In this document: positions 7,159-11,282 of the stretch, in pieces
How the letters are laid out: every line of letters begins with the position of its first letter
Position numbering within the stretch: position 1 is the stretch's first letter
NCBI GenBank assembly: GCA_035948415.1
Contig: DASZJD010000130.1
Span: 1-34,773 of the forward strand
Length of the DNA stretch: 34,773 bases
Source: Acidimicrobiia bacterium
GTDB taxonomy: Bacteria; Actinomycetota; Acidimicrobiia; IMCC26256; PALSA-555
Direction of reading: 5' to 3'
Program-made: the position numbers and the translations under genes
Notes under the pieces: model-generated
The model's database searches: none
Told to the model about the DNA's origin: nothing
The model's input: the letters and a program-made list of their open reading frames with translations, nothing else

Positions 7159-7764
7159 ATGGGTCCGGCCGAATCGGACGAGCTGCGTCCGGCGGTGTCG
7201 CCGGACCTCGATGAACGCGCCCTGGTGGCGCGGGCGCGCACCGACCCGGCCGCGTTCGGGGTCCTCTACCGCCGCTACGTCGAGCGCATCTACGCCTTCG
7301 CCTTCCGGCGCACCTGGGGCCCGGAGGCCGCCGAGGACGTCACCGCCGCCACCTTCGAGCGGGCGCTGCGCCACCTCGGACGCTTCGACGCCGACGGCGC
7401 CGGCTTCGGCCCCTGGCTGTTCCGGATCGCCGCCAACGAGCTCGTGGACCACTACCGGCGGGAGGGCCGCAGCCGCAGCGACCGGGGCCAGCGCGGCCTC
7501 CACGTCCTGGCCGGCCACCCGGTCGAGGACGACGTCGAGGGCATCGAGCGCGACGACGAGGTCCGCCGCATGATCGACGCCCTCGGCACCCTGCGACCCC
7601 GGTACCAGCAGGCGCTCACGCTCCGCTACCTCTCCGGCCAGTCGGCGGACGACGCCGCCGAGGCGATGGGCTGCTCGAAGGCCGTGCTCGCCGTCACCCT
7701 CCACCGGGCCCTCGGGGCCCTCCGGCGCGCCGTCCTGGACACGGCCGAGCCCGAGGCCAGCTGA
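7159..7764 (+). CDS. ECF-family RNA polymerase sigma factor
   Basis: A 201-residue sigma-70 family protein with only regions 2 and 4. Region 2 spans about 33-100 (AFGVLYRRYVERIYAFAFRRT, then AEDVTAATFERAL and GPWLFRIAANELVDHYRR). Region 4 spans about 137-190 (LRPRYQQALTLRYLSGQSADDAAEAMG followed by a helix-turn-helix). It directs RNA polymerase to a small regulon; the signal is unknown. The ATG is chosen because it gives a normal N-terminus and follows an AGAGGG sequence. The next gene overlaps by 3 nt (TGATG), so the two are translated together, and that gene encodes a membrane protein: the usual layout of an ECF factor with its membrane-bound controller. Confidence 0.93.
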   Translation: MGPAESDELRPAVSPDLDERALVARARTDPAAFGVLYRRYVERIYAFAFRRTWGPEAAEDVTAATFERALRHLGRFDADGAGFGPWLFRIAANELVDHYRREGRSRSDRGQRGLHVLAGHPVEDDVEGIERDDEVRRMIDALGTLRPRYQQALTLRYLSGQSADDAAEAMGCSKAVLAVTLHRALGALRRAVLDTAEPEAS

Positions 7765-8525
7765 TGGCGACGAGACGCGACGTCCAGGCGGGGCTGGCCC
7801 GGCTCGGGGCCCGACCGGTCGCCCACCCGTCGCCCGAGTTCGTGGCCGGACTCGAGCGTCACCTCGTCGGCGCCGCGGCGCGGATCGGGGCGGGCGCACC
7901 GCCCGCCGACCTGCGCCAGCGCCTGGCCTGGCTCGGCGACCAGCCCGTCGTCGGCCCGTCGCCCGAGTTCGTAGCCGGCCTCGAGCGTCGCCTCATCGGC
8001 GCCGACCGACCGGCGGGCACGCTCGTCGCGCTGCCGGCCCGCCGCCGCCCCGCGGCCCGGGTCGTCGCGGCCGTGGCCGCCGCCGCCGTCGTCGTCCTCG
8101 GCGGCGCCGCGCTCGGCGGGGCGCTCCTCGGCGTGTTCTCGCCCAGCGCCAGCCCCGGTCACGGCCCCCTCGAGCTGAAGAAGGCCGTGAACACCCAGGT
8201 CGTGCTGCCCGACGGGCGCCGGGTGACGGGTCGGAGCGGCCTGAGGCTGCCGAACGGGGCGGTTTTGTCGACGGGCCCGAACGGTCAGGCCTCGGCGGGG
8301 TCGTTCCAGCTCGGCCCCGGTCTCCAGGGCACGATCGACGCCGGCCGGATCCACCTGACCACCCCGCAGCTGCCGCCGGTGACCACGCCCACGCTGCCGT
8401 CCCCGCCCCCGGTGACGACGCCGAAGGTGACGACCCCGGCGCCGCGGCTGCCGCCGTTCACGCTGCCGCCGGTGACGCTGCCGGTCCTGCCGCCGGTGAC
8501 GCTGCCGCACCTGCTGCCGCACTGA
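7764..8525 (+). CDS. Membrane protein, probable anti-sigma partner, with duplicated N-terminus and Pro/Thr-rich tail
   Basis: A 253-residue single-pass membrane protein. The cytoplasmic part holds two copies of one unit (residues 11-37 and 54-80) sharing PSPEFVAGLER and the flanking L-A-x-L-G and L-x-G-A positions. One hydrophobic helix (about 99-124) follows. The outer part has a stretch with FecR-like character (VVLPDGRRVTGRSGLRLPNG and VLSTGPNGQAS, about 147-178) and then a tail of PPVT repeats at 204, 215, 235 and 243. Position after an ECF sigma gene with start/stop overlap suggests a membrane anti-sigma or signal-receiving protein; no zinc anti-sigma motif (HxxxCxxC) is present, so the mechanism would differ from RsrA-type proteins. 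Function is inferred from context. Confidence 0.72.
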   Translation: MATRRDVQAGLARLGARPVAHPSPEFVAGLERHLVGAAARIGAGAPPADLRQRLAWLGDQPVVGPSPEFVAGLERRLIGADRPAGTLVALPARRRPAARVVAAVAAAAVVVLGGAALGGALLGVFSPSASPGHGPLELKKAVNTQVVLPDGRRVTGRSGLRLPNGAVLSTGPNGQASAGSFQLGPGLQGTIDAGRIHLTTPQLPPVTTPTLPSPPPVTTPKVTTPAPRLPPFTLPPVTLPVLPPVTLPHLLPH

Positions 8526-8531
8526 CCGCCC

Positions 8532-9251
8532 TCACCAGGTCAGGTGCGCCCGCACCGGCCGGTGGTCCGACCCGCAGTCGTCGAGGACGCCGGCGTCGGT
8601 GGCTTCGACCTCGCCGCCGCGCACGAGCACGTGGTCGAGCTGGCTGTGCGGCCACCGGGCCGGCCACGTCCGTCCGGTGACGGTCCGCCGCCACCCGGGC
8701 CCGAGGAGCGCCACGACCGGCGGTCCCCAGAAGTTGCAGTCGCCGGCGACCACCGTCGGCACGCCGGCCGGCGGCAGGAGCCCGGCGAGGCGACGCAGCT
8801 GCAGCACCGGCCCGTGCGGCAGCCGGGAGGTGAGGTGCACGCCCACGACCCGCAGCGGCGCGGCGCCGCCGTCGAGCTCGACCTGCGGCAGCCGCCGCGC
8901 CGGGGCGGGGTCGCCGCGCGTCGGTCCGACCGGCAGGTCCGGCAGCGGACGCGCTGCGACCCGGGTGAGGACCGCGGTGCCGGCGGTGCCCTCCCCGCGG
9001 GGGTCGTGGTGGGGCCAGCGGCTGTGCCGCGTGGCCCGGCCGGTGGCGGTGTGGTGGACGGCGAACCCGTGCTTGGCCGCGAACTCGTCGACCGCGCCCG
9101 GCCCGCCGTCGGGTCGCCAGACCTCCTGGATCACCATGACGTCCGCCGCCAGGGCCGCAAGCACGGCCGGCAGGTCGTACGGAACGACGCGGCCGCGCTG
9201 CGCGTAGAGGCCGTAGTGCGTGTTGAAGCTGACGAGGCTGATCGCCGCCAT
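8532..9251 (-). CDS. Endonuclease/exonuclease/phosphatase (EEP) family protein
   Basis: A 239-residue metal-dependent phosphodiesterase or phosphomonoesterase fold. The family's ordered motifs are intact: N10 in SFNTHYG, the metal ligand E43 in VIQEVW, D171/N173 in GDCNFW, D206/H207 in QLDHVL, and D229/H230 in GSDHRPV. There is no signal peptide. Substrates of this family range from DNA to phospholipids and inositol phosphates, and nothing here picks one. It starts 14 bp after the histidine kinase stop on the same strand and could be the last gene of that operon. The ATG at 9251 begins directly before the first strand; a GTG 12 nt further upstream is an alternative. Confidence 0.85.
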   Translation of the reverse strand: MAAISLVSFNTHYGLYAQRGRVVPYDLPAVLAALAADVMVIQEVWRPDGGPGAVDEFAAKHGFAVHHTATGRATRHSRWPHHDPRGEGTAGTAVLTRVAARPLPDLPVGPTRGDPAPARRLPQVELDGGAAPLRVVGVHLTSRLPHGPVLQLRRLAGLLPPAGVPTVVAGDCNFWGPPVVALLGPGWRRTVTGRTWPARWPHSQLDHVLVRGGEVEATDAGVLDDCGSDHRPVRAHLTW

Positions 9252-9264
9252 GGCGGCGCTCACC

Positions 9265-10593
9265 CTACGAGGGGGGCTCCGGCTGCTCGCCGTCACCGGG
9301 GAGGCGGACGACGAAGCGGGCCCCGCCGATGGGGGCGTCGTCGATCGTGACGGAGCCGCCGTGCCGCTCGGCGATCGACCGGACCATGGCCAGGCCGAGG
9401 CCGGCGCCGCCCCCGGCGCGGCCGCGCCCCTCGTCGAGGCGGGTGAACCGGTCGAAGACCCGCTCCCGGTCGGCGACCGGGACGCCGGGGCCGTCGTCGT
9501 CGACGACGAGCCACACCGACCCCTCGCCGGTCGCCACCGACGCCGCCACCCGGCTGCGGGCGTGGCTGCACGCGTTGTCGAGCAGGTTGCGCACGAGGCG
9601 GAGCAGCTGGCGGGGGTCGCCGGTGACCCGCCCGGCCGAGACCCGCGACGTGTCGATCGGCACCGGCCGCACCCGGCCGGCCTCCTCGAGCACGAGGTCG
9701 TCGACGTCGACGTCGGTCGGCGCCGGCGCGGCCTCCTCGACGCGAGCGAGCTCGAGCAGCTCGCCGACCGCGGCCTCGAGACGGTCGTCCTCGTCGAGCA
9801 CCCGGCGAGCCACCTGGGGCCAGTCGGCCCCGCCGCCCCGGCGGAGGGCCACCTCGAGCTGGGCTCGGATCGCCGCCACCGGGCTGCGGAGCTCGTGCGA
9901 GGCGTCGGAGACGAACTGCCGCTGGCGCATCGACGACTCCTCGAGGCGGTCCAGCATGGCGTTCATCGTGTGGGCCAGGCGGCCGACCTCGTCGCCGGTG
10001 TCGGGCTCCGGGACCCGTCGGTGGATGGTGCTGCCGGTGATCGCGGCGGCCTCGGCCCGGATCGACTCGACCGGGCGGAGGGCCCGCCCGGCCAGGTGCC
10101 AGGCCAGCAGCGCGGTCGCGGCGACGAGCGCCGGGACGCCGATGAGCAGCGCGTCGGTCACGCTGTGGACGGTGCGGTCCACCTCCCCCAGCGAGCGTCG
10201 GGCGATGAGCGTGACCTGGCCCTGCTGGGTGGCGACCCGCTCCTGGGCCCGCACCGACTGGCGCGTCGGCAGCGGCGACGCCGCGCGCAGCCCGGGCAGG
10301 GTGAAGAGCTGGCCGTCGGGGCTCTCGAGGATGATGTCCGGCGGGCCGCCGGCGCCCGGGTCGCTCGGGAAGTTCAGCTGGTCGGGCGCCCGTCCCGCCT
10401 GCAGCTGGCGGGCGATCATCGCCAGCTGGTCGCGGTTCGTGCGCTGGATCTCGCTCACGATGTTCGCGTGCACCGATCGCACGAGGCCGTAGGACGCCGC
10501 CGCCAGGCCGACGGCGACGAGGCCGGCGGCGGCGAGGGTGATCCGCACCCGCACCGACCCGAACCACCGGCGGACCAGGTCGCGGGGGTGCAT
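9265..10593 (-). CDS. Two-component sensor histidine kinase (HAMP, HisKA, HATPase_c)
   Basis: A 442-residue membrane kinase. Transmembrane helices at about 16-40 and 146-168 bracket an extracellular sensor region of roughly 100 residues. A HAMP linker follows (ALRPVESIRAEAAAI onward), then the phospho-acceptor His233 in SDASHELRSPVAAIRAQLE. The ATP-binding domain shows the N box (NLLDNACSHA, 336-345), G1 box DDGPG (366-370) and G2 box GAGLGLAMVRS (about 396-406). The start is 1 nt after the stop of the response-regulator gene, so the pair is co-transcribed. The sensor domain has no cysteines or obvious ligand motif, so the stimulus cannot be predicted. Confidence 0.95.
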   Translation of the reverse strand: MHPRDLVRRWFGSVRVRITLAAAGLVAVGLAAASYGLVRSVHANIVSEIQRTNRDQLAMIARQLQAGRAPDQLNFPSDPGAGGPPDIILESPDGQLFTLPGLRAASPLPTRQSVRAQERVATQQGQVTLIARRSLGEVDRTVHSVTDALLIGVPALVAATALLAWHLAGRALRPVESIRAEAAAITGSTIHRRVPEPDTGDEVGRLAHTMNAMLDRLEESSMRQRQFVSDASHELRSPVAAIRAQLEVALRRGGGADWPQVARRVLDEDDRLEAAVGELLELARVEEAAPAPTDVDVDDLVLEEAGRVRPVPIDTSRVSAGRVTGDPRQLLRLVRNLLDNACSHARSRVAASVATGEGSVWLVVDDDGPGVPVADRERVFDRFTRLDEGRGRAGGGAGLGLAMVRSIAERHGGSVTIDDAPIGGARFVVRLPGDGEQPEPPS

Positions 10594-10594
10594 G

Positions 10595-11269
10595 TCAGCT
10601 GGCGGCGGCGAGGTGGTAGCCGGCGCCGCGCACGGTGCGGATCAGGCTCGAGCCGAAGGGCTGGTCGATCTTGCGCCGGAGGTAGCCGACGTACACCTCG
10701 ACGACGTTCGGGTCGCCGGCGAAGTCGATGCCCCACACGTGGTCGAGGATCTCCGACTTCGACGCCACGGTCTCGCCGCGGCGCATCAGGAACTCGAGGA
10801 CGGCGAACTCGCGGGTCGTCAGCCGGATCTCGGCGCCGTCCCGGGTGAGCCGCCGAGCGCCGGGGTCCAGGCGCAGCGGCCCGAGCTCGAGGATGGCCGG
10901 CCGCGGCGGCGCACCGCGCCGGAACAGGGCCCGCAGCCGCGCCAGCAGCACCACGAACGAGAACGGCTTCGAGAGGAAGTCGTCGGCGCCGGTGTCGAGC
11001 GCCTCGGCCTCGTCCCACTCGCCGTCCTTCGCGGTCAGGATCAGGATCGGCGTCCAGATCTCCTCGTCGCGGAGGGTCTTGCAGACCCGGTAGCCGTTCA
11101 TGCCCGGGAGCAGCACGTCGAGGACGATCGCGTCGTACGAGCCCTCGCGGGCGCGCCAGAGGCCGTCGAGGCCGTCGTGGACGGCGTCCACGTCGAACCC
11201 CTCGGCGACGAGGCCCTCGGTGATGGCGTCGGCGAGGTGCACCTCGTCCTCGACGATCAGCACCCGCAT
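10595..11269 (-). CDS. OmpR/PhoB-family response regulator
   Basis: Receiver domain plus winged helix. With the start at 11269 (MRVLIVEDEVHLADA) the protein has 224 residues: acidic pocket E7/D8, phospho-acceptor D51 in VLDVLLPG, T79 and K101 (FLSKPFS), and a C-terminal DNA-binding domain from about 120, with LTTREFAVLEFLMRR and the wing IRTVRGAGYHL. An in-frame ATG three codons upstream (11278) is also possible. I prefer 11269 because CACAAT lies 7 nt before it, the spacing seen at other leaderless genes here, and because the receiver then begins directly with its first strand. It is the cognate partner of the kinase whose gene follows at once. Confidence 0.95.
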   Translation of the reverse strand: MRVLIVEDEVHLADAITEGLVAEGFDVDAVHDGLDGLWRAREGSYDAIVLDVLLPGMNGYRVCKTLRDEEIWTPILILTAKDGEWDEAEALDTGADDFLSKPFSFVVLLARLRALFRRGAPPRPAILELGPLRLDPGARRLTRDGAEIRLTTREFAVLEFLMRRGETVASKSEILDHVWGIDFAGDPNVVEVYVGYLRRKIDQPFGSSLIRTVRGAGYHLAAAS

Positions 11270-11276
11270 GTCGCGC

Positions 11277-11282
11277 ATTGTG
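11277..11282 (-). promoter_or_regulatory. -10 element CACAAT, leaderless promoter of the response regulator
   Basis: On the minus strand CACAAT ends 7 nt before the preferred ATG at 11269. It overlaps the alternative ATG at 11278, so only the shorter protein could be made from a transcript starting here. Confidence 0.4.

Follow-up and report, generated by a model that had tools for sequence, protein, structure and literature searches.

A doubled cytoplasmic module in the candidate membrane anti-sigma factor of an Acidimicrobiia ECF sigma factor

The locus described here raises the question of what a small membrane protein, encoded beside an ECF sigma factor, does with two copies of the same cytoplasmic sequence. 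The window, by which we mean the whole stretch of 34,773 nucleotides that was analysed, is a contig of an Acidimicrobiia bacterium whose genome comprises 3.4 Mb in 133 contigs. It carries the gene of an ECF sigma factor of 201 amino acids (7159-7764, + strand), in which Pfam finds both sigma regions 2 and 4 over cut-off (Sigma70_r2, PF04542, 1.1e-15, 57.6 bits; Sigma70_r4_2, PF08281, 5.3e-11, 42.4 bits). The TGA stop of this gene overlaps by one base the start of the partner gene (7764-8525, + strand), which encodes a candidate single-pass membrane anti-sigma factor of 253 residues and was matched once in the genome. An earlier, sequence-only reading had placed the open reading frame correctly and had called its product the partner of the ECF factor. 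This assignment holds, as the two genes overlap in nine of ten homologous loci (the exception is L030), and the orthologues in G001, G003 and G005 adjoin the same sigma factor. The partner protein itself gave no domain in a Pfam scan and no match at E ≤ 10 when compared by sequence with solved structures. On the opposite strand after the partner gene (8532-11278, −) follow, as judged by eye, an exonuclease-endonuclease-phosphatase type protein, a histidine kinase and a response regulator; this gene order is kept in three close loci, among the matches listed.

The partner has one hydrophobic helix, with its peak at residues 100-118 (8061-8117, +; the 19-residue Kyte-Doolittle mean is 2.42 at residue 100), and an arginine-rich RRRPAAR lies on the N-terminal side of it. 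The protein contains no Cys and therefore no HxxxCxxC zinc motif, in agreement with the earlier remark that this is not the layout of a zinc anti-sigma factor, and membership in the zinc-type class I was rejected on the absence of the motif. The class I family NF052375 was likewise rejected, with 19.9 bits for the partner against a curated cut-off of 100; it is also a broad family, matched in 245 of the 296 phylum genomes scanned and in 5 of 14 controls, 1 of which exceeds the cut-off.

The cytoplasmic part ahead of the membrane helix is repetitive. Two 27-residue units, LARLGARPVAHPSPEFVAGLERHLVGA (residues 11-37; 7794-7874, +) and LAWLGDQPVVGPSPEFVAGLERRLIGA (residues 54-80; 7923-8003, +), are identical at 20 of 27 positions and are separated by 16 residues. 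When residues 1-100 are matched against themselves, the best ungapped BLOSUM62 score is 102, compared with a maximum of 47 in 1000 shuffles. At the DNA level the repeat covers 82 nt (7794-7875 and 7923-8004) at an offset of 129 nt and with 84.1% identity; a divergence of 16% between the copies makes it unlikely that the assembly created the repeat. The two copies that the sequence-only reading had pointed out before the helix are thus present, with a score far above chance, but their extent had been drawn too short. The repeat period is 43 residues, and both the alignment with one-module orthologues and the profile show that two whole modules of about 43 residues are repeated. Module 1 (residues 1-43; 7764-7892, +) occupies the ancestral N-terminal place, and module 2 (residues 44-86; 7893-8021, +) adjoins the membrane helix. 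With a profile built from the nine modules outside the window, module 1 scores 43.8 bits (residues 1-46) and module 2 scores 47.5 bits (residues 47-100), so that each copy is a complete module and, the two scores being about equal, neither is visibly decaying. The module is read as two helices joined by a Pro-rich link (PxPEFVxxLExRL). Its profile gave four matches among solved structures, the best of which, to a beta-glucosidase at E 0.011, we take for chance.

The doubling itself was found nowhere else. Among ten homologous sigma/partner loci, the window has two modules and the other nine have one, although in all ten the module precedes the hydrophobic helix. The gene was found in 4 of 12 genomes of the same family, the window included. 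The close orthologues, in G001 (same genus), G005 and G003, have one module each; the sigma factors adjoining them are 78, 74 and 67% identical, respectively, to that of the window, and neighbouring genes are common to all four loci, among the matches listed. The distant one-module loci come from the same order (G055, G042, G054) and the same class (G222, G239, G179). Left out of the count of ten were L006 in G028 (outer domain only), L017 (a Rieske protein), L032, L033 and L034 (weak matches with other architectures), weak phylum matches in G498, G063 and G418, and 30 class genomes with weak matches. These 30 (E 4.3e-5 or worse) are part of the at least 40 genomes matched when 390 genomes of the class were scanned with the module profile. 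In that scan two strong matches in one frame occurred only in the window genome, among the candidates listed, and one strong match (E 3.6e-13 or better) occurred in at least nine other genomes. Genome counts from the module scans are lower bounds, as family members can have been missed, and the ten loci match the profile by construction because the same ten loci built it. A scan of GTDB contigs with the sigma factor returned two loci, whose partner genes are those of L002 and L004, and a scan of viral contigs found no relative.

A conserved two-unit design was therefore rejected at one locus in ten, and a lack of conservation is what the sequence-only reading had itself named first as grounds for refuting its proposal. 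That reading had also advised looking for one-, two- and three-unit versions in relatives; among the ten loci, nine have the one-module version and the window alone has the two-module version. Module 1 at the ancestral N-terminus and module 2 at the ancestral place before the membrane are as expected of a tandem copy. The doubling is most likely private to the window lineage and recent, later than the divergence from the one relative of the same genus, to judge from the sequences at hand. Searches of the open-access literature under the words tandem, duplicated or bivalent anti-sigma domains found no description of such an arrangement. Two loci outside the count show parts of the family in other settings. 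At about 1389-1689 of L006 (G028), a hydrophobic helix and this family's outer domain lie in two frames as an orphan, with no sigma factor seen beside it. At L017 (1378-2076, +), a Rieske protein (PF00355) has an N-terminal ALPSTEFVSDLHRRL, which resembles the module core and lies before a hydrophobic stretch; this may be a sigma-binding module attached to a redox protein.

A duplication found in one locus of ten would also fit a recent and near-neutral accident, in which module 2 works while module 1 is passive or fading. The codons of the two copies can be read either way. In the 16 codons outside the 11-residue core there are 8 nonsynonymous and 3 synonymous differences, with no sign of constraint; against an accident, the 11 core codons differ by 2 synonymous and 0 nonsynonymous changes, and neither set has enough changes for a test. 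The profile scores given above also count against it, since module 1 matches about as well as module 2. On balance we regard such an accident as possible but rather unlikely.

What a single module might do is suggested by the RsbN-BldN system. The best solved relative of the window sigma factor is 6dxo_A (E 9.1e-21 over sigma residues 22-101; the next is at 3.5e-14), which we take to be the RsbN-BldN complex. For comparison, the nearest sigma factors were taken from 12 genomes of the phylum, eight of which, of 7 to 10 Mb, belong to one genus that is presumably Streptomyces, and for 11 of these sigma factors the adjoining membrane protein genes were examined. Of the 11 loci beside BldN-like sigma factors, nine entered an RsbN-type alignment, without L075 and L079; L070 and L081 denote one and the same locus. 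The module profile (11 rows) matches the RsbN-type profile (nine rows) over 32 columns with a probability of 81% and a score of 31.8, where the best of 200 column shuffles reached 12.4. The six Streptomyces-like rows alone match it weakly (score 15.8, probability 1.9%, with 1 of 200 shuffles higher at 18.8), so the link to RsbN rests mainly on three RsbN-like proteins of other genera, which as a subset without its own shuffle control score 33.6. Given this match to the cytoplasmic part of RsbN-type proteins, which are encoded next to BldN-like sigma factors, the repeated unit looks like the sigma-binding module that it had been supposed to be, and the partner likely binds the neighbouring sigma factor. 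In a tree of the sigma factors, the ten form one clade (100/99) that lies outside the BldN group and next to it; the basal fork is weak (79/68) and the bootstrap is not quite settled; the loci had been picked by the partner profile, so that this clade is not independent evidence. The module could instead be a juxtamembrane element of some other kind that binds no sigma factor, the two genes being merely co-transcribed. While the lack of a Pfam domain and the weak NCBIfam anti-sigma match would suit this explanation, the position of the module, the overlap with the sigma gene, the one hydrophobic helix and the match to the RsbN-type profile do not, and we consider it highly improbable.

The window protein shares with RsbN the absence of zinc, the one membrane helix and the place beside an ECF sigma factor, which in the window may be BldN-like, and the stretch before the membrane helix of RsbN-type proteins matches the window module. 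It differs in three respects. RsbN has an extra first helix, whereas the one-module relatives start at the module and are without a counterpart. A DUF5667 outer domain is present in the three RsbN-type proteins scanned (L074, L082, L083), and a domain scan gave no DUF5667 match in the window protein or six relatives; we found no description of DUF5667 together with anti-sigma in the open-access literature under those words. Finally, the window protein carries the module twice. The likeness to class I (the RskA/RseA type of NF052375) is of a more general kind: a cytoplasmic sigma-binding part, a membrane helix and an outer sensor, as against the missing zinc motif and the weak family match of the window protein. 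In the best local alignment with class I, the pre-membrane helix falls in the same register as in the window module; the match of a class I profile (26 members) to the module profile is not significant (probability 1.3%), with the same helix-link-helix register. CnrY of class II, whose short cytoplasmic part has two helices and precedes a single membrane helix (PMC7406223), is similar in this layout. The CnrY family NF033790 gave one sub-threshold match, on L005 (E 0.035, 14.6 bits, cut-off 35), and the Pfam CnrY family one sub-threshold match on one relative (E 1.2).

PMC7406223, section 10 of which interchanges the names RsbN and BldN, states that in each of the three anti-sigma classes sigma region 4 is contacted by an early helix and region 2 by the last one. 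For RsbN, PMC8103513 describes a block of region 4 and retention of BldN at the membrane. From the shared helix placement in the three classes, together with the match to the RsbN-type profile, we infer that the module may be a minimal RsbN-like clamp. By analogy with RsbN of class III and CnrY of class II, its first helix would cover region 4 and its second, membrane-adjoining helix would cover region 2, so that a single module would be enough to keep one sigma factor at the membrane.

How two such clamps on one protein would work together can be thought of in several ways. The two modules could pool their helices into one larger four-helix domain on one sigma factor, nearer to the layout of RsbN or class I, which use three and four helices, respectively (PMC7406223). 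An AlphaFold model of the whole partner protein does place four helices before the membrane (residues 4-13, 24-40, 47-59 and 67-79), at low confidence (mean pLDDT 38, from a three-row alignment). The modules, however, are near copies, so their helices are not specialised, and nine relatives manage with one module; we think pooling very unlikely. Alternatively, the two modules could hold two sigma factors at once, with a steeper, two-to-one response on release. Two complete modules in tandem would allow this, and according to PMC7406223 the final helix of the anti-sigma chain touches another sigma molecule in the crystal of RsbN with BldN, so that one anti-sigma chain touching two sigma factors is possible in class III. 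With only 16 residues between the 27-residue units, and with a doubling that is not conserved (one of ten loci), simultaneous holding seems quite unlikely to us. The broader proposal of a natural bivalent anti-sigma factor, in which tandem complete modules on one anchor either hold two sigma factors or grip one with two-point avidity, is doubtful as well.

The reading that we prefer, with a probability of about 0.5, is that the partner is a membrane-anchored, minimal, zinc-free anti-sigma factor whose clamp was recently doubled, the likeliest effect being a tighter hold on one sigma factor. The module would have been duplicated in tandem, recently, in the window lineage. One sigma factor would be held by one module at a time, and the second copy would raise the chance of rebinding; the result would be a tighter hold, not a new mechanism. 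The small outer domain and the Pro/Thr tail would sense a signal outside, and the sigma factor would be freed by loss of the anti-sigma protein, probably through regulated proteolysis.

The outer part of the protein has two segments. The small outer domain (residues 134-200; 8163-8363, +), delimited by alignments, has about 65 residues and is present in nine of the ten loci (L031 is without it). Its model is all-beta with seven strands, at low confidence (pLDDT 54), and a Foldseek comparison of the model with the PDB gave no match at E ≤ 0.001; with the limit at E ≤ 10 there were 135, the best 50 of 135 being listed. The sequence-only reading had seen a FecR-like stretch here, and the outer part does share LPDG and TGPxG turns with FecR, a protein that works with an outer-membrane receptor. 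The resemblance turned out to be visual: PF04773 had no match at E ≤ 10 in any of seven family members scanned with Pfam, and the hhalign comparison with eight FecR domains gave a probability of 4.8% and a score of 18.6, just above the best of 200 shuffles (17.3). Membership in the FecR family was rejected on these two results.

The Pro/Thr tail (residues 201-253; 8364-8522, +) does contain the four PPVT repeats that had been counted in it, at residues 204, 215, 235 and 243; the tail of L003 contains VTLPPVTLPPVTLP. In the six distant loci, the protein ends in a domain that resembles Fn3 on visual inspection and comes after a Thr/Pro-rich stretch; no Fn3 family had a match in the family members scanned, and the terminal domain is absent in the window and its three orthologues. 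The domain-bearing stretch of these six relatives appears to lend some context to the window tail.

The same distant loci hold a further gene of interest. In five of the six, the gene upstream of the sigma factor encodes a secreted-looking protein (L141:4828-5244, −; L142:4180-4581, +; L143:4163-4570, +; L144:5220-5867, −; L146:4060-4827, +) with a domain homologous to the terminal domain of the anti-sigma protein (hhalign probability 97.5%, score 65.3, compared with a maximum of 15.3 in 200 shuffles). At the sixth, G239, no such gene was seen among open reading frames of at least 90 residues in the kilobase upstream of the sigma gene. When the loci were compared with one another by BLAST, all against all, no open reading frame of the window or its three orthologues matched this upstream protein, among the matches listed. 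A wider and equally doubtful form of the bivalent proposal, drawn from the relatives and not from the window, is that a soluble version of the sensor domain, made by the cell itself, might tune the switch. In G005 and G003, a lipoprotein-like glucosaminidase gene lies directly downstream of the anti-sigma gene (L003:716-1417, −; L004:668-1324, −; PF01832, 41.3 and 41.9 bits, cut-off 30.2), and its relatives in the window genome and in G001 lie on other contigs only. This neighbour, present in two of the four close loci, is no more than a hint that the system is linked to the cell wall.

What is new here is most likely the lineage-specific doubling of an anti-sigma module, the underlying kind of anti-sigma factor being already known. 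If both modules bind, the window protein would be a natural test of how anti-sigma valency sets the threshold of a sigma switch, for which the one-module sister in the same genus would be the control. A further suggestion from the family is that RsbN-type clamps are small modules that can move and be placed on varied outer sensors (DUF5667, the small domain, Fn3-like ends); unannotated ECF partners would then become recognisable by it.

A last observation concerns the C-termini. Among the eight Streptomyces-like proteins beside BldN-like sigma factors (L073 to L080), six have VTLPPLLPGLLPGLG a few residues before the end, and the remaining two are cut off by the locus. The tails of L003 and of the window protein end in VTLPPVTLPPVTLPTPPGLPGLP and TLPPVTLPVLPPVTLPHLLPH, respectively, and these Pro tails are similar to those of the VTLPPLLPGLLPGLG proteins, perhaps by convergence.
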